Below, in pieces: positions 54,861-64,000 of a stretch of DNA of 64,000 nucleotides (within the stretch, counting starts at the first letter, position 1; each line of letters starts with the position of its first letter). The translations under genes and the position numbers were made by a program. The stretch comes from Burkholderiales bacterium 70-64 (lineage in GTDB: Bacteria > Pseudomonadota > Gammaproteobacteria > Burkholderiales > Burkholderiaceae_E): contig MKUQ01000044.1 in assembly GCA_001898645.1 (NCBI GenBank), positions 67,952-131,951 on the forward strand, given 5' to 3'. The notes under the pieces were generated by a model that was not told where the DNA came from, searched no databases, and worked only from the letters and a program-made list of their open reading frames with translations.

Positions 54861-55241
54861 TCAGCAATGCAGGGCGGCGATCAGCGGACAGGAAACATTG
54901 CCTTGATGCGCATGGCACTCACCAACCAGCGTGGATAAGGCTGCCTCGATCCGGCGCAGGTCGGACAGCTTGGCGCGCACATCGTCCAGCCGCAAGGCAG
55001 CCAGTTCCGCCGCCTCGCTGCAATGGGTCCCGTCTTCCAGTTTCAGAAGCTGCCCGATCTCGTCCAGGCTGAAGCCCAGCCGCTGCGCCGCTTTCACGAA
55101 CTTCACCCGCGCCATGCTGCCGTAAGGCCGGTCCGGCGTCGGCAGCAGTCCCTTGAGTTGATAGAAGCGGATCGTCTCGACGTTGACCCCGGCCGCCTTG
55201 GCGAACGCGCCGATGGTCAGGCTGTCCGGATCGGTGTTCAT
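54861..55241 (-). CDS. merR: Mercury-responsive regulator MerR
   Basis: 126-residue MerR. N-terminal winged helix ([20 protein letters not shown]) and dimer helix are typical. Hg(II) ligands are the Cys in G-T-H-C-S-E-A-A, the one in [11 protein letters not shown] and its partner, matching the three-Cys Tn501 pattern. The start at ATG 55241 is used; a GTG at 55244 is the next codon upstream. It binds the divergent operator at 55247-55277 and switches merT onward on with Hg(II). Confidence 0.94.
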
Positions 55242-55246
55242 CACGC

Positions 55247-56379: not shown

Positions 56380-58092
<1,713 letters not shown>

Positions 58093-58107
58093 CGAGAAAC
58101 ACCTCAA

Positions 58108-58773
58108 ATGCCAACCTCGTTCGATATCGCAGGGATTGCCGAGGCGCTGACACTGACCCGCGTAAGCGGCGCGGGGTCTGCTGATCTCTTCCGCGTTCTT
58201 TTGTGCGAGCTGGCGATGGGCCACCCGGTATCGCGCGAAACACTGGCAGCTGCTTTGGGCTGGACGGCGAGCCAGGTGACCGCCGCGCTGAACCAAGTCC
58301 GCAGTGTGGAATACGACGACCACGACAACATCGTCGGCTACGGCCTCACGCTGCGCGAGACGGCCCATGCCTTCGAAATGGATGGCCGGCGCCTCTATAC
58401 CTGGTGCGCTCTCGACGCCCTGATGTTTCCGCCGATGATTGGCAGGACCGCGCGAGTCACCTCGTCCTGCGCTGCAACTCGCGCCCCGGTGCGGATGACG
58501 GTCACACCCGACGCGGTTTGCGATATCGATCCCGCCGGCGCCATGGTGTCTCTCGTGGCGCCGGATAGCTCGGCTGACGTTCGCAGCGCGTTCTGCTGCC
58601 ACGTGCACTTCTTTGCTTCTGCGGCGGCAGCAAATGCCTGGGCCGGCGCGCATGCCCGCGTGGCGGTGGTCGGCGTGCACGACGCGTTCCGTCTCGGGCA
58701 ATCGCTCGCGCAGCGGCTGAAGGAGCCGGCACTGCCCTCATATAGTTCGGGCGCTACCGAGGCGCGGCCGTGA
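58108..58773 (+). CDS. merB: Organomercurial lyase MerB
   Basis: 221-residue MerB that cleaves the C-Hg bond of organomercurials. The catalytic set corresponds to C100 and D103 (Y-T-W-C-A-L-D-A-L) and C163 (S-A-F-C-C-H-V-H-F-F), the equivalents of C96, D99 and C159 in R831b MerB. It makes this a broad-spectrum mercury operon. Its stop overlaps the patatin-like gene start by 4 bp. Confidence 0.95.
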   Translation: MPTSFDIAGIAEALTLTRVSGAGSADLFRVLLCELAMGHPVSRETLAAALGWTASQVTAALNQVRSVEYDDHDNIVGYGLTLRETAHAFEMDGRRLYTWCALDALMFPPMIGRTARVTSSCAATRAPVRMTVTPDAVCDIDPAGAMVSLVAPDSSADVRSAFCCHVHFFASAAAANAWAGAHARVAVVGVHDAFRLGQSLAQRLKEPALPSYSSGATEARP

Positions 58774-59672
58774 ACACCCACACGCTGCGCGCGGCGACCG
58801 AGCGCCCCGAGGCGCCGGCTCTCGGCGGCATGACGGATCTGCGCAGCGCCCAGGCCGATCCCGTGGCCGCTCGCGCGGACCCGGGCCGGCAACGCCGCGC
58901 ACTGATCCTCTGCGGCGGCGGCGCGCGTGGGGCGATGGAAGTCGGTTTCTATCAGGCTATCACCGAACTGGGACTGTCCTTCGATCTCGTCGTCGGCAGC
59001 TCGGTGGGTGCCCTCAACGGCGCGCTCATTGCGGCGGGCTTCTCGCCGGCGGAGCTCGCCGGCCTCTGGCGCGGCATCCGCCGACGCGACCTCATCGCGT
59101 GGAGCGGGCGCGCCCTGCTGTCCGGCGGCTTCTACAGTTTCGACCCCCTGCGACGGCTGCTCGAAAAGACACTGCCGGTGCGCCGCTTCGAAGAACTCGA
59201 GCGCCCGTTGGTGATCACGACCACCAATCTGCGCACCGGTCACGTCCACTACTGGGATCGCGGCGATCTGCTGGCGCCACTCATCGCCAGCATGAGCCTG
59301 CCCGGCGCGTTCCCCCCGGTCTGGATCGGCGGTGAGCCGCATGTGGACGGCGGTGTCGCCAGCAACGTGCCGTTCGAGCCTGCATTCGACCGTGGCATTA
59401 CCGAGATGATGCTGGCCTTGTGCACCTGCTGCCCGCCCGCTGCGCATCCGCCACATTCACCCTTTGGCGTGCTGCTGCGCAGCTTCCTCATCTCGCTGGA
59501 CAGCAAGTACGCCTGCGATCTCAACCACTATCGGCGGCAAGGGATCGTCATGCGCGTCGCCCGGCCCGAGTTTCTGCTCGACGTCGGTCTGCTGGACTTC
59601 CAATACGCCGATGCGCTGATCCGCGCAGGCCACGAGCAAAGCCTGAAGGCTTTGCCCTGTTTCGCAGGCTAG
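58770..59672 (+). CDS. Patatin-like phospholipase within the mer operon
   Basis: 300-residue patatin-fold serine hydrolase. The oxyanion motif L-I-L-C-G-G-G-A-R-G-A is at about 45-55, the nucleophile elbow V-G-S-S-V-G-A at about 75-81 (G-x-S-x-G) and the catalytic Asp in V-D-G-G near residue 192. No signal peptide, so cytosolic or membrane-associated. It is coupled to merB by ATGA overlap and followed by merD at 15 bp, so it belongs to the operon. Lipid remodelling after organomercurial damage is a guess. It is not part of the classical mer set. Confidence 0.88.
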   Translation: MNTHTLRAATERPEAPALGGMTDLRSAQADPVAARADPGRQRRALILCGGGARGAMEVGFYQAITELGLSFDLVVGSSVGALNGALIAAGFSPAELAGLWRGIRRRDLIAWSGRALLSGGFYSFDPLRRLLEKTLPVRRFEELERPLVITTTNLRTGHVHYWDRGDLLAPLIASMSLPGAFPPVWIGGEPHVDGGVASNVPFEPAFDRGITEMMLALCTCCPPAAHPPHSPFGVLLRSFLISLDSKYACDLNHYRRQGIVMRVARPEFLLDVGLLDFQYADALIRAGHEQSLKALPCFAG

Positions 59673-59687
59673 CGGAAGGAGGAAGCG

Positions 59688-60041
59688 ATGGACGATTACA
59701 CGATCTCCAGGCTCGCCGGGGCGGCCGGTGTCAGCGTCCATGTCGTGCGCGACTATGTGCTGCGCGGGCTGGTGCGTCCGGTGCGTCACACGCCCGGCGG
59801 CTATGGCCTCTATGACGAGCAGGCGCTGGCGCGGCTGCGCCTGGTGCGGGCGCTGTTCGAGGCCGGGATCGGCCTCGACGAGTTGGCCCGCCTGTGCCAC
59901 GCCCTGGATGCGGACAGCGATGCCGCCGAATGCCTGACCCGCTTGCGCACATGGCTCGCGGCACGGCGCGAGCGGCTGGAGTCCCTCGACCGGCAGCTCG
60001 CCGGCATGGCGGGTGCCAATGCGGAGTGCCGTTATGGATAA
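59688..60041 (+). CDS. merD: Mercury operon co-regulator MerD
   Basis: 117-residue MerR-like protein ([20 protein letters not shown]) without the Hg-binding cysteine triad; it has C-H-A-L near 68 and single Cys near the end. MerD displaces MerR-Hg from the operator to shut the operon down. It overlaps merE by 8 bp. Confidence 0.92.
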
Positions 60042-60252
60042 CGATCAAACGCCGGGCTGGCGAGCCTACGCCTGGGGTGTGCTGGCCGCGCTGACCTGCC
60101 CGTGCCACTTGCCGATCCTGGCCGCCGTCCTGGCGGGCACGACCGCCGGCGCGTTCCTCAGCGAACATTGGGGAATCGCGGCGCTCGCCCTGGCGGCCCT
60201 GTTCCTTTTGGCCCTGACGCGGGCGCTACGGGCCTTCCGGAGCCGGTCATGA
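60034..60252 (+). CDS. merE: Mercury transport protein MerE
   Basis: 72-residue, two-helix membrane protein with the Cys pair in [10 protein letters not shown], the MerE signature. It assists uptake of inorganic and methyl mercury. The start at ATG 60034 lies inside merD; the stop overlaps the EAL gene (ATGA). Confidence 0.92.
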
Positions 60253-61028
60253 TCGCGACGTCATCCGATGAACCGACCGCCACGCAATTGGCGCAAGCGG
60301 TGCAGCGGCAGGAACTGGTTCTTCACTACCAGCCGATCATCGCCGTGGACGGCGGCGCGCTCATCGGCGCGGAGGCGCTGTTGCGCTGGGCGCACCCCGA
60401 CCTCGGTCTGCTGGCTCCTGTGCATATCCTGGCGCTGGCCGAGGCTGCCGGGCTGATGCCGCAGATCGGCGACTGGGTATTGCGGGAAGCCTGCCGGCAG
60501 ATGCATGACTGGCAGACGGTCGTTCCGACATCGTTCCGCCTGGCGGTCAACGTGGCCGCCAGTCAGGTGGGGCCGGATTTCGACAGTGGTCTGCGGCACG
60601 TGCTGGCCGACACGCCGTTGCCCGGCGGGCGGCTGGAGATCGAGCTGACCGAATCGGCCGCGTTCGGCGATCCGGCGCTGTTCGCCCTGTTCGACGCACT
60701 GCGCGCCGTCGGCGTGCGCTTTGCCGCCGACGACTTCGGCACCGGCTATTCGTGCCTGCGACACCTGAAGTGCTGCCCGATCACCACGCTCAAGATCGAC
60801 CAGTCCTTCGTGGCGGGACTGGTCGATGATGCCCGCGACCGCACCATCGTGCGGGCGGTGATCCAGCTCGCCCACGGGCTGGGCATGGAGGTGGTCGCCG
60901 AAGGCGTCGAATCGCCGGCCAGTCTCGAATGGCTGCGCCAGGCCGGCTGCGACGCCGTGCAAGGATTCCTGTTCTCCCCGCCGCTGCCGGCCGACGAGTT
61001 CATCCGCTTCGTCCATCAGAGGAGGTAG
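60249..61028 (+). CDS. EAL-domain protein (mer-transposon Urf2 type)
   Basis: 259-residue stand-alone EAL domain, the family of c-di-GMP phosphodiesterases. It has E-A-L-L-R-W near 40, the N-V-A-A-S-Q metal site, [14 protein letters not shown] and E-G-V-E-S near the end. The main catalytic residues look intact. It corresponds to Urf2/Orf2 found after merE in Tn21/Tn501-type operons. Whether it is active in signalling is unknown. Confidence 0.9.
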
Positions 61029-61030
61029 AC

Positions 61031-61231
61031 ATGATGAGCAACGAACCTGGGACGATTGCCTGCTGCGTCTGCTGCAAGGAAATCCCGCTTGACGCCGCCT
61101 TGACTTCGGAAGGCGCCGAGTACGTCGAGCACTTCTGCGGGCTGGAGTGCTATCGGCGCTTCCAGGCGCGCGCCAAGGCCGGCGAGCGCGAGCCCGACCG
61201 AGCGCCGGGCGGGCAGCCTGATCCGTTCTGA
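61031..61231 (+). CDS. DUF3330 protein, mer-operon end
   Basis: 66-residue Cys-rich protein with C-C-V-C-C-K-E-I-P and H-F-C-G-L-E-C, a treble-clef-like metal site. DUF3330 genes end many mer transposon operons. GGAGG lies just upstream; the start may be the first or second Met of M-M-S-N. It is the last plus-strand gene of this operon, 38 bp from the converging cluster. Confidence 0.85.
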
Positions 61232-61268
61232 GCCAGGTCACGCCGCGCCACGTGGGTACGCCACTGCG

Positions 61269-62163
61269 CTAGAAGTTCAGACGAAAGCCGGTGGTCAGGA
61301 TGTAGTCGTTTCGCAGCGCGCTGCCGTTCAGGTGCTGCGAGACCGGTATCTGGATGCCGGCTTCGAGCACCCATTTGCGGGTCACATACTGCACGGTCGG
61401 CGTCAGGAACAGCGTCGTGCCGCCCGAGTTCGGATCGTCAGCCCCATTGACCCGATCCATGGCGACATGGATCAGGTTGGCCTCCAGCCCGCCGTAGAGA
61501 AAGCTGGGGACGCCTTCGCCCAACGTGCCGGGCCACAGCCGGCGCTGGACCGACAGATCGAGGCGGCTGACCGCGCCGGCCCGGAAGCCGTTGGCTTCCC
61601 CATTGCGCTGAAAGGCGAGCTGGACGTCACCACCCCAATCCAGCGATTGAAAAGATGCCACCGCGCCGCCCTGCCAGTCCCACGAGCCGGAACCCGGCTG
61701 AAGCATCGGCGGCAGCCGTCCAAGGCGGTCGGAAGCGTGGTCGTCGCCGGTCGGCGCCTTGACGCCGAGAAACGGCGCGATGCGGAAGGTATGCCCCGTC
61801 GCGTTGTCCTCGTAGGCCGTGTAGCGGCCCATGAACATCGCATCGCCAAAGCCCGACTGGCTGCGCGTCCGCCCCGCCCACGTTCATCGACAGCCGCTTG
61901 TCGGCATAGGGCAGCACCGCGAACACAGCAAAGTTGCGGGTGACGCCGTAGCCCAGCACGGACATCAGGCCGGAGACCTCCATTCGGCGGTTCATCGGTG
62001 ATGGATCGTCGGTGCTCTTCATGTAGACGAACTGCTCGCGCAGAATCCACTCGTCCTTGGAGATGGGCAGGGCCGTGTTGAAGGTCAGCGGCGCGGCGTT
62101 GGCGGCCCCCGCCCAGGCGCACAGCACGGCCAGCGCCAGGATGTTTCCGAACGGGACGTTCAT
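61269..62163 (-). pseudogene. Outer-membrane transporter-like protein, single-base frameshift
   Basis: The N-terminal part (62163 to about 61876) has a signal peptide (residues 1-23, ending A-N-A-A) and beta-strand-rich sequence (W-I-L-R-E-Q-F-V-Y-M, N-F-A-V-F-A-V-L-P-Y). The C-terminal part (to 61269) continues in another frame with alternating strands and a terminal aromatic (T-G-F-R-L-N-F). Dropping one C from the C4 run at 61872-61875 restores a single 297-residue frame through S-G-F-G-D-A-M-F-M-G. The pattern is that of transporter/MetA-pathway-like beta-barrel proteins. This may be true decay, slippage or a sequence error. It is the last gene of the minus-strand operon, coupled to the MerP-like gene (ATGA). 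Confidence 0.8.
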
Positions 62164-62474
62164 TTGGCTTCTTCTTTGGAAACCTTCGCGTCACCGGGCG
62201 TGAAGCCGGCGTCATAGATCAACTGCTTGTAGCGTTTGAGGTCGGGTTGCGCGCCGGGCTTGAGCACGATGTGGACGTTTTGCGACTTCAGGCTCGCGCT
62301 CACGGAATCGACTTCGCTCGCCTTGCCGAGGTTCTTCTCCAACCCATAGGTGCAGAACGGGCAGGTCATGCCCTTGACGGCAATGTCCACCACCTGGCGC
62401 TCCGCGCCGAAGGCCATGAGTGGCAGGCAAAGCGCCAAGGCTGCTGCCAGGTGTTTCAGATAGGGTCTTTGCAT
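62160..62474 (-). CDS. MerP-like periplasmic heavy-metal-binding protein
   Basis: 104 residues: signal peptide 1-23 (ending A-F-G-A), then a divergent HMA domain with V-K-G-M-T-C-P-F-C-T (C38, C41). The fold continues with V-S-A-S-L-K-S-Q-N-V-H-I-V. It differs from the MerP at 55675 by having P-F between the cysteines and a Lys/Glu-rich C-terminal tail. It probably binds Hg(II) or another soft metal in the periplasm and hands it to the membrane protein encoded upstream. Confidence 0.88.
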   Translation of the reverse strand: MQRPYLKHLAAALALCLPLMAFGAERQVVDIAVKGMTCPFCTYGLEKNLGKASEVDSVSASLKSQNVHIVLKPGAQPDLKRYKQLIYDAGFTPGDAKVSKEEAK

Positions 62475-62503
62475 GACGATGATCTCCTTCGAGGATGGGA
62501 GGC

Positions 62504-62902
62504 TCAGACCCCGAGCCAGATACGGATCGGCAGCGCCAGATAGGCGGCGAAGAAGCCGATGCCCCAGATAGCGGCCGAGACACCATGAATCCGCCGGTTC
62601 CAGCGCTGGGCGCGCTCGCACAAGCGCCCCAACTCGGGATCGCTCGGGCAGGCGCGACCCGGCCGGTAGAGCAGCCAGCCGGAGACCAGCAGCATCAGCC
62701 CGGAGCCCGCGAACACCCAGCCCTTGTGCAGGGCCAGCGTGACCAGGAACGGCACGGCGCTGGTGACGGCCGCCACGGTGGCACCCAGGCCCAGCATGAC
62801 GAACAGGATCGGCAGGGCGCAGCAGATCAGCGTGCCGCTTGAAGCGAACAGCGTCAGCCAACTGACCGTGTTTTGCCGAAGCAGCGACGGGCCGGTCTTC
62901 AT
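62504..62902 (-). CDS. MerT/MerC-like membrane protein with vicinal cysteines
   Basis: 132-residue membrane protein with four hydrophobic helices. The first contains G-T-L-I-C-C-A-L-P-I-L-F, a vicinal Cys pair placed like that of MerT. A loop holds single cysteines (R-A-C-P-S-D, R-L-C-E-R). The sequence is too far from MerT (55312) to be a simple duplicate. Position between a CcdA-like and a MerP-like gene supports metal or electron-coupled transport. Specific substrate unknown. Confidence 0.75.
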   Translation of the reverse strand: MKTGPSLLRQNTVSWLTLFASSGTLICCALPILFVMLGLGATVAAVTSAVPFLVTLALHKGWVFAGSGLMLLVSGWLLYRPGRACPSDPELGRLCERAQRWNRRIHGVSAAIWGIGFFAAYLALPIRIWLGV

Positions 62903-62911
62903 GGCGTGCCC

Positions 62912-63607
62912 CTACCAAGTGAGCCAGGGGAAAAAGGCGAACCAGCCATTGAGCAGATACAGGCCGGTGAGCATCAGCAGGATGCTGCCGGTCAGCTCGA
63001 AAGCCCTTTGGTACCGTCCGAGCGGTTTCATATGCTCGATCCGCTCCAGCGCGGCCGCCGCCAGAGCCAGGGGAATCGCGCGTCCGATGGCGAAACTGGT
63101 CAACATCGCCGCGCCGAACAGCGGCGAGCCGCTGGCCGCCGCCGCGCCCAGCAGTACGACGAGCGCCGGGGCGCAGGAGGGGCAGACGGCGACCGAGAAC
63201 GGGATGCCGAGCGCGAACGCCCCCCAGCCGCTTGCGACACGCTTGGCCTTGAAGCCGAGCGCCGGCAACGGCAACTTGATCCACCCGGTCCACAGCAGAC
63301 CAAGAATGATCAGCCAGGGGCCAAGCAGCAGCCCCCACCAGCGCCCGGCCATTGCCTGCACCCCTTGGCCGCCGAGTCCTGCCACCGTTCCCAGCAGAGC
63401 ATGCGCAGTGATCAGACCCGCGATGAAAGCCAGTCCGTAACGGATCGCCTCCCGTGGCTCGCGCGCCCGCGTCACGTAGGCGAGCGGCACCGGCAGCGCG
63501 GCGATCGCCAGGGGGCTCAGGCTGAAGAACAGACCCGCCAGCAGGCTGATGCCGCTGGCGATTCCCACGCTTTGGGAGGCAAGCTGGCGCAGGGTCTCAA
63601 GCTCCAT
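62912..63607 (-). CDS. CcdA/DsbD-like thiol-redox membrane protein
   Basis: 231-residue six-helix protein of the cytochrome-c-biogenesis CcdA family, which moves reducing equivalents across the inner membrane via a Cys pair. The visible pair lies in F-S-V-A-V-C-P-S-C-A-P-A-L. The usual first-helix Cys is not obvious, as S-L-S-P-L-A-I-A-A replaces the common S-P-C. The start at 63607 has GGGAGG upstream; ten bases overlap the thioredoxin-like gene. It could keep the periplasmic HMA protein or its metal site reduced. Confidence 0.82.
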   Translation of the reverse strand: MELETLRQLASQSVGIASGISLLAGLFFSLSPLAIAALPVPLAYVTRAREPREAIRYGLAFIAGLITAHALLGTVAGLGGQGVQAMAGRWWGLLLGPWLIILGLLWTGWIKLPLPALGFKAKRVASGWGAFALGIPFSVAVCPSCAPALVVLLGAAAASGSPLFGAAMLTSFAIGRAIPLALAAAALERIEHMKPLGRYQRAFELTGSILLMLTGLYLLNGWFAFFPWLTW

Positions 63608-63863
63608 CGCCACGCCTCCCATCTCGCCGGCGCAGTTCGGCGACGAGCTGTTCGGCGGTCGGCAGCGCGGTGAACGCCAACTTTCCGTCGATGGCGAGCG
63701 CGGGCAGCGTCAGCACGCCCAGATCGACCGCGCGGTCGAGATCGTCGAGAACGTTGACCTCGCGCCACTCGACGCCGGACACGGTTTCGGCAGCCGCCCT
63801 GAGCGCTGTCGTCGCCCCCGCGCACTTGGCACAACCTGGCGTAAAGAACAGCTCGATCTTCAG
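63597..63863 (-). CDS. Thioredoxin-like CxxC protein with apparent CTG start
   Basis: 88-residue thioredoxin-fold protein: K-I-E-L-F-F-T-P-G-C-A-K-C with the C-x-x-C at residues 11-14, then V-N-V-L-D-D-L-D-R-A and L-T-L-P-A-L-A-I-D-G (cis-Pro). No ATG, GTG or TTG lies in frame before the active site. A CTG at 63863 overlaps the MerR stop as CTGA, in the place where an ATGA/GTGA junction would be expected. A shorter product from 63782 would lack the CxxC. It probably exchanges electrons with the CcdA-like protein. Confidence 0.75.
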   Translation of the reverse strand: MKIELFFTPGCAKCAGATTALRAAAETVSGVEWREVNVLDDLDRAVDLGVLTLPALAIDGKLAFTALPTAEQLVAELRRRDGRRGDGA

Positions 63864-64000
63864 GGGGTGCGCTCCGCCTCGAAGCCGACCGCTTCCAGGG
63901 CCGCCAGGATCGGACAGTCATCGAGCGGCAGCGAACCGCCAGCGCACTCGGCGATCAGCACGTCGAGCGCGGCGGACATCTTCTGGATGGCGCGAATCTT
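63860..64000 (-). CDS. MerR-family regulator, C-terminal part (gene continues beyond window)
   Basis: The last 46 codons of a MerR-type gene: dimerisation helix K-I-R-A-I-Q-K-M-S-A-A-L-D-V-L, then a Cys pair I-A-E-C-A-G-G and L-D-D-C-P-I-L that replaces MerR's C-x8-C by C-x9-C. The pattern suggests Hg(II) or another soft metal as inducer. It is the upstream gene of the 61.3-64.0 kb operon. Confidence 0.8.
   Translation of the reverse strand, partial: KIRAIQKMSAALDVLIAECAGGSLPLDDCPILAALEAVGFEAERTP

Follow-up and report, generated by a model that had tools for sequence, protein, structure and literature searches.

The subject here is a set of genes at the end of a 64,000-nucleotide stretch of DNA (the window) from Burkholderiales bacterium 70-64, contig MKUQ01000044.1, positions 67,952 to 131,951 of the forward strand. 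Within the window is the 3' portion of a conserved set of genes that has a MerR-type gene and an operator of its own. The set lies on the minus strand and converges on a mercury resistance (mer) operon. The set is a recurrent unit, and it is linked to merA and mercury resistance. We tentatively favor the view that it brings in a soft metal, probably Hg(II), by a dedicated route and delivers it to the MerA of the converging operon. Its parts belong to known families, and the whole is a variant of mer-type metal transport that is not a member of the mer, CcdA relay, ArsEFG, or ZntR systems, since for each of these at least one feature tested was not found.

The gene set and its recurrence

A sequence-only reading of the window had claimed six minus-strand parts, running from 64000 to 61269: MerR-like, thioredoxin-like, CcdA-like, MerT-like, MerP-like, and outer-membrane barrel genes. 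All six are present, with the order and spacing right; the MerR-like gene, however, is truncated, and the barrel gene is broken into two frames. The features, together with the merA proposed as partner of the set, are as follows.

63860..64000, minus strand: MerR-family regulator, ZntR-like, C-terminal 46 residues, cut by the contig end; classed via a full-length relative at the related locus L010
63597..63863, minus strand: protein of the Thioredoxin_3 fold that carries CAKC and is predicted to be cytosolic; its CTG start was inferred from how the frame overlaps the MerR-like stop
62912..63622, minus strand: membrane protein of the CcdA/DsbD fold, by profile match, that has CPSC and lacks the relay cysteine of helix 1
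62504..62902, minus strand: membrane protein resembling MerT; its conserved cysteines are the CC of helix 1 and two others
62160..62474, minus strand: MerP-like HMA protein with a signal sequence and CPFC
61627..62163, minus strand: barrel protein, frame with the N-terminal part (approximately the first 100 residues match), by match to the L010 protein
61269..61838, minus strand: barrel protein, frame with the C-terminal part, by PF13557 match
56407..58092, plus strand: merA of the converging mer operon, proposed partner of the set

Neighboring genes of the set overlap or are separated by at most 29 bases. The thioredoxin-like gene overlaps the end of the MerR-like gene by 4 bases, the CcdA-like and MerT-like genes are 9 bases apart, the MerT-like and MerP-like genes 29 bases apart, and the barrel gene, beginning at 62163, has a 4-base overlap with the MerP-like gene. 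An alternative internal ATG start at 63607 is possible for the CcdA-like gene. Both pieces of the barrel gene match one intact 299-residue protein of L010. The contig ends at window base 64000, so that the 5' part of the MerR-like gene and its promoter fall outside the window. Another contig of the same genome, C42, terminates with TTGACTCTGGAGTTCGCTCCAAGG, which is the operator of the set, and its end matches L010 immediately ahead of the gene set. Judged from L010, the gap between the two contig ends is about 620 bases, a stretch absent from the assembly hits.

A protein search gave 1226 proteins related to the MerT-like one. Scanning genomes with the window protein and 25 relatives as queries confirmed 161 places, 80 of which were kept for counts; these exclude L001 to L005 and L006 to L009, and counts over 85 rows add L006 to L009 and the window. 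Three contigs of one strain (L081, L085, and L086) and two single-genome pairs (L017/L019 and L021/L023) were all counted, and many contigs of the related loci are short. On the same strand as the MerT-like gene, an HMA (MerP-like) neighbor was found in 72 of the 80 loci, a barrel gene in 67, a thioredoxin-like gene in 54, a MerR-family gene in 49 (a tally that accepts any MerR-family gene on the strand), and a CcdA-like gene in 30, with all six kinds in 18. Searching 5 kb of the same strand around the other 50 MerT-like genes revealed no CcdA-like gene, partly on account of short contigs, and L016 keeps the MerT-like, MerP-like, and barrel genes while the CcdA-like and thioredoxin-like genes are both absent. 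A gene-neighborhood search had been proposed as a check on the sequence-only reading; the six genes do co-occur elsewhere, and because the same set recurs in many genomes, a chance neighborhood was rejected.

The related loci show two layouts. That of the window, found in Hydrocarboniphaga, Sinimarinibacterium, Thiobacillus, and Ralstonia records, among others, consists of a second thioredoxin-like gene followed by MerR, thioredoxin-like, CcdA-like, MerT-like, MerP-like, and barrel genes, and loci of this type share 70 to 94% DNA identity with the window across aligned stretches. The other layout, typical of many gammaproteobacterial metagenome bins, runs from a first barrel gene through HMA and MerT-like genes, an optional second HMA gene and second barrel gene, and a thioredoxin-like gene to an optional long CcdA-like gene and MerR. 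Regulator, thioredoxin, CcdA, "MerT family," and HMA genes also stand in a row on a Nitrobacter plasmid, and regulator, thioredoxin, and CcdA genes lie near merR, merT, merP, and merA on a Cupriavidus plasmid. The MerT-like protein of the window (62504 to 62902, minus strand) itself was found on 19 contigs, the longest of 400 kb, which hints at recent spread. On a Vibrio plasmid, a 223-residue protein (L143:5027-5698), whose gene adjoins one for a GDCCVxC protein, spans both a MerT-like match and an HMA domain; if a natural fusion, it would suit direct hand-over of the metal.

Link to merA, operator, and regulator

Across 369 genomes of the class, with merA counted when over its cut-off, merA was present in 22 of the 27 genomes that carry the MerT-like gene at an E value of ≤1e-48 and in 51 of the 342 others (odds ratio 25, P = 7e-13, kinship ignored). 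Removing the genome of the window left 21 of 26, and the 22 genomes with both genes span 16 families. The cut at 1e-48 is one of four; at 1e-40 merA was found in 23 of 34 MerT-like-positive genomes, and at 1e-55 in 18 of 23. Seven of 23 genomes with both genes have them within 20 kb on one contig. The control gene acr3 showed no clear link (13 of 27 versus 118 of 342 genomes, P = 0.11). Among the 80 loci, merA was found in 19. Counting canonical merT as well raises the number to 23, and gives 10 for the 34 loci with full flanks; in L010, L012, L014, L015, L016, and L081, the end of merA is at most 250 bases from the end of the barrel gene, with overlap in three. At least 10 of the 369 genomes also supply loci L010 to L089, so the locus and genome tests overlap.

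A MerR-type promoter lies ahead of the set, with 77 sites in 60 of the 80 loci against 3.6 expected from plain base shuffles. Nearly all of the sites (75 of 77) are within 700 bases ahead of a listed gene, and a search with two spacings found none on the other strand of the 80 loci. The consensus, drawn from 55 sites in 48 loci, is TTGACCTGGAGTcnaCTCCAGgntgTAggCT; at window-type loci an additional base stands ahead of the dyad. In the 19 genomes that supply 20 of the loci, the motif in a strict form was counted 12 times, spread over 10 of the genomes. The L010 operator, TTGACTCTGGAGTTCGCTCCAAGGTTTATCCT, is nearly identical to the Escherichia coli zntA promoter of MG1655, TTGACTCTGGAGTCGACTCCAGAGTGTATCCT, with the same 20-base spacing, and an operator of this type is also the one on contig C42. 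A mer-type operator was rejected for the set: the mer promoter of the window has a different dyad, and the set operator resembles that of zntA. A second motif form, TTGAAC-CTGGAG-n4-CTCCA-TGTC, was seen in ten loci, where it precedes a barrel or thioredoxin-like gene and often comes right after the first operator (L017:1907, L018:3752, L024:2821, L045:386, L049:4396, L056:3347, L059:4389, L065:2633, L071:4630, and L079:4731). A gene for a six-bladed NHL propeller (L049:2549-3523 and L059:1824-2798) is preceded by the set operator and may belong to the regulon.

The cassette regulators matched ZntR models best. The full-length regulator of L010 matched two such models at 125.2 bits (cut-off, 143) and 123.2 bits (cut-off, 167.95), both below threshold, and then CueR (104 bits), MerR (100.8 bits; cut-off of the Hg type, 150.85), and CadR (82 bits), while two mer regulators beside the other layout matched the MerR model best (147 and 156 bits). 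The loop of the cassette regulator is equal in length to that of ZntR. Cys115 and His119 of E. coli ZntR bind Zn. In the alignment, both are lost from the window-type regulators, which keep cysteines 79, 114, and 124 and have one extra just before; the three aligned regulators of the other layout have no cysteine at 79 and a shorter loop. From these scores and residues, the inducer cannot be read from the regulator sequence. A further difference is that the cassette regulator governs an import-type set and ZntR an exporter. In a regulator tree, 23 cassette regulators and 11 mer regulators are separated by one change (support, 87/86), and the tree is no proof of descent from ZntR because the E. 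coli references sit on long branches.

It is because of the regulator that another metal is the main rival to mercury. The set might handle a soft or borderline metal other than mercury (Zn, Cd, Pb, Cu, or Ag) and stand beside mer because resistance genes gather on mobile islands, which we consider unlikely though deserving of serious weight. The ZntR-type scores, the zntA-like operator, and the lack of Cys79 in the aligned regulators of the other layout agree with it, as do P-type ATPase, RND, and Acr3 genes near some loci and related modules that neighbor ATPases, copper ones included, in Variovorax and Nitrobacter. Yet the MerT-like gene goes with merA and not with acr3, the Zn ligands Cys115 and His119 are not kept, and components of the MerT and MerP kinds are what Hg import uses.

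Proteins of the set and the converging mer operon

MerT has two cysteine pairs, one of them a CC in helix 1. The four corresponding cysteines of the MerT-like proteins were kept in 85, 85, 85, and 84 of 85 rows, and the MerT family model PF02411 matched 14 of 26 rows of alignment A1 at an E value of ≤0.01 (best, 3.4e-6). A search of the MerT-like profile against solved structures found nothing. The MerP-like protein has an HMA fold, a signal sequence, and CPFC, and scored only 23 bits with the MerP model TIGR02052 (cut-off, 92.55); CPFC or CPYC was found in 75 of 139 matched HMA stretches. Thus the set resembles mer transport genes in these cysteines, in an HMA protein with a signal sequence, in a MerR-family gene, and in the merA found at some loci. 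It differs from them in its own ZntR-like regulator and operator, its outer-membrane barrel, and its cytosolic thioredoxin-fold and optional CcdA-fold proteins, and in that merA is not inside the set.

The barrel protein matched PF13557 above the gathering score of 22, with 48.5 bits for the L010 protein and 27 bits for the window piece. An AlphaFold model of the L010 barrel (predicted local distance difference test score [pLDDT], 83) found FapF first in a fold search and next the COG4313 channel 4rl8 (E = 1.5e-11; template modeling scores, 0.68/0.75). The model has 14 strand pieces of at least 3 residues, some of them probably split pieces, and COG4313 channels are 12-stranded and implicated in the uptake of hydrophobic molecules, according to the available part of PMC4493636. 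Unlike those channels, for which that part mentions no metal role, the barrel belongs to a MerT/MerP-type gene set, and FapF ranks above them in the fold search. Channels of this kind would fit an organomercurial-specific uptake route, with MerB as the sink and a channel suited to hydrophobic molecules. Indeed, merB is in the window, and it was present in 7 of the 27 genomes with the MerT-like gene versus 26 of the 342 others (P = 0.006). Among merA-positive genomes, however, merB is no commoner with the MerT-like gene (7 of 22) than without it (11 of 51; P = 0.26), so that a specific tie of the set to merB was rejected, and in L010, L012, and L015 merA sits right next to the barrel gene and no merB intervenes. 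We regard such a route as quite improbable.

The thioredoxin-like protein begins directly with its fold and is predicted to be cytosolic because it has no signal sequence or hydrophobic segment; its CxxC cysteines were kept in 68 and 65 of 68 rows. The CcdA-like protein matched PF02683 (39.5 bits; gathering, 27.1), PF13386 (41.9 bits; gathering, 24.9), and, by profile, the CcdA structure 5vkv (E = 3.6e-7), and so shares the membrane fold of CcdA/DsbD relays. It differs from them in the absence of the two-cysteine pair of helices 1 and 4: the SPC cysteine of helix 1 in 5vkv has no counterpart, and the CPxC brackets the TPC cysteine, at the second position. The second cysteine of CPxC was kept in 28 of 28 rows and the first in 25.

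These features bear on the thiol-redox relay by which the sequence-only reading had proposed that metal-binding thiols of the envelope are kept reduced. In its favor, a CcdA fold adjoins a CxxC thioredoxin-fold protein, and long two-half CcdA-like proteins elsewhere bring an extra N-terminal half, absent from the window protein, with two further invariant cysteines (7 of 7 rows). By motif only, that pair resembles the CcdA pair, and a relay may therefore exist in bacteria with the long forms. A periplasmic relay in the window was rejected, given a thioredoxin-like protein predicted to stay in the cytosol and a CcdA-like protein without the helix-1 cysteine. The CcdA-like and thioredoxin-like genes are, moreover, dispensable to the set: no CcdA-like gene was found at 50 of the 80 MerT-like genes and L016 is without both. 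The relay is, accordingly, an improbable explanation of the set as a whole. The CPxC CcdA-fold protein is an optional part, and a role as an additional permease that binds metal, or as an exchanger of thiols, is likelier for it than one in a classical electron relay.

Another explanation of the set would be an arsenical exporter like ArsEFG (ArsG permease and ArsE thioredoxin-like protein, known to us through text in the available part of PMC9144182 that cites it) with MerT- and MerP-like parts added. The best NCBIfam match of the CcdA-like protein is ArsG, and those of the thioredoxin-like protein include the MJ0307 thioredoxin and ArsE models, yet all scores are far under the cut-offs (59.1 bits against 200, 46.4 against 92.75, and 35.9 against 62). 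Moreover, ArsG was matched at an E value of ≤1e-30 in none of 81 genomes (the own genome and relatives), the set has MerT-like, MerP-like, and barrel genes instead of ArsF, and the recurrent core does without a CcdA-like gene in most loci. ArsEFG membership was rejected on the scores and the genome count, and the wider explanation is very improbable, even though another CPxC CcdA-like fragment shares a contig with acr3 in the own genome. In that fragment's locus (L004:3-3671; G000:C47), a short CxxC-rich frame, an ArsR-like frame, acr3, and a methyltransferase-like frame follow it.

The converging operon comprises, on the plus strand, merT, merP, merC, merA, merB, a patatin-like gene, merD, merE, an EAL-type gene, and a short cysteine-rich gene, with merE and the last two assigned by eye. 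It had been called a complete classical mer operon; the converging mer genes are present, but completeness is doubtful because merR (54861 to 55244, minus strand) is 8 residues shorter in its DNA-binding part than the other aligned regulators, and its product may perhaps be unable to bind DNA normally. The genes from merB to the cysteine-rich gene form a 3.2-kb segment (58093 to 61267) that separates merA from the set in the window and is not present between them in L010, L012, or L015; its flanks have 89 and 93% DNA identity to L010. Within it, the patatin-like phospholipase gene (58770 to 59672, plus strand; PF01734, 129 bits) lies between merB and merD, and the cysteine-rich frame (61031 to 61231, plus strand; 66 residues, CCVCC) follows the EAL-type gene. 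A second merA above the cut-off lies outside the window on the same contig (G000:C44:49514-50896).

A proposed metal import line and its meaning

The reading of the region as carrying a further gene set, associated with mer and equipped with an outer-membrane channel, is supported, the set being found together elsewhere. In the import line that we favor, metal would enter through the COG4313-like outer-membrane barrel, be captured in the periplasm by the CPFC HMA (MerP-like) protein, and cross the inner membrane via the four-cysteine MerT-like protein. The cytosolic CxxC thioredoxin-fold protein would take it from there and pass it to the MerA of the neighboring mer operon for detoxification. 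Acting at a promoter unlike that of mer, the ZntR-like regulator would activate the set with a threshold, or in response to a metal form, different from that of the mer operon. Mercury is the best guess for the substrate because import of a toxic metal needs a sink, and merA is the sink found with the set. The strongest form of this proposal, a second mercury regulon with a full Hg(II) import line from outer membrane to cytosol, its own sensor and operator, a barrel as the door, and a thioredoxin-fold chaperone to MerA, is more doubtful than the import line in general.

Several observations weigh against an import line for mercury. In 61 of the 80 loci merA is absent within the examined flanks, and it is missing in 5 of the 27 MerT-like-positive genomes; with a looser cut (E ≤ 1e-20), merA was found in 23 of 44 versus 50 of 325 genomes. 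The Acr3, RND pump, and P-type ATPase genes near some loci count here as well, and so does the regulator, which is ZntR-like and not Hg-MerR-like and has an operator matching zntA, so that the inducer may be Zn, Cd, or Pb. As for the transport proteins, the barrel gene of the window is broken, the available part of PMC4493636 ties COG4313 channels to hydrophobic substrates and not ions, and the MerT-like protein of the window matched no Pfam family, including PF02411, with a structure model that is weak (pLDDT, 68) though it has helices.

The sequence-only reading knew of no mer operon that combines these parts. We found no description of the combination, the operator, or the regulon in the literature searched (for MerT, CcdA, and thioredoxin together and for GDCCVxC), with subscription papers mostly outside the search, nor in the available parts of PMC8261052, PMC3466566, PMC7760498, PMC9144182, and PMC4493636. 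The mer literature, in the portions available, names periplasmic and inner-membrane Mer proteins and no outer-membrane one.

With a barrel gene joined to MerP-, MerT-, and thioredoxin-like genes under a switch of its own and tied to merA, the outer-membrane step of mercury entry becomes testable. The set also shows a CcdA fold without the relay pair, and its operator motif provides a means to seek the regulon in any genome. If the strongest form of the proposal, a second mercury regulon, is true, the whole would amount to a detoxification system that has an outer-membrane channel of its own for import.

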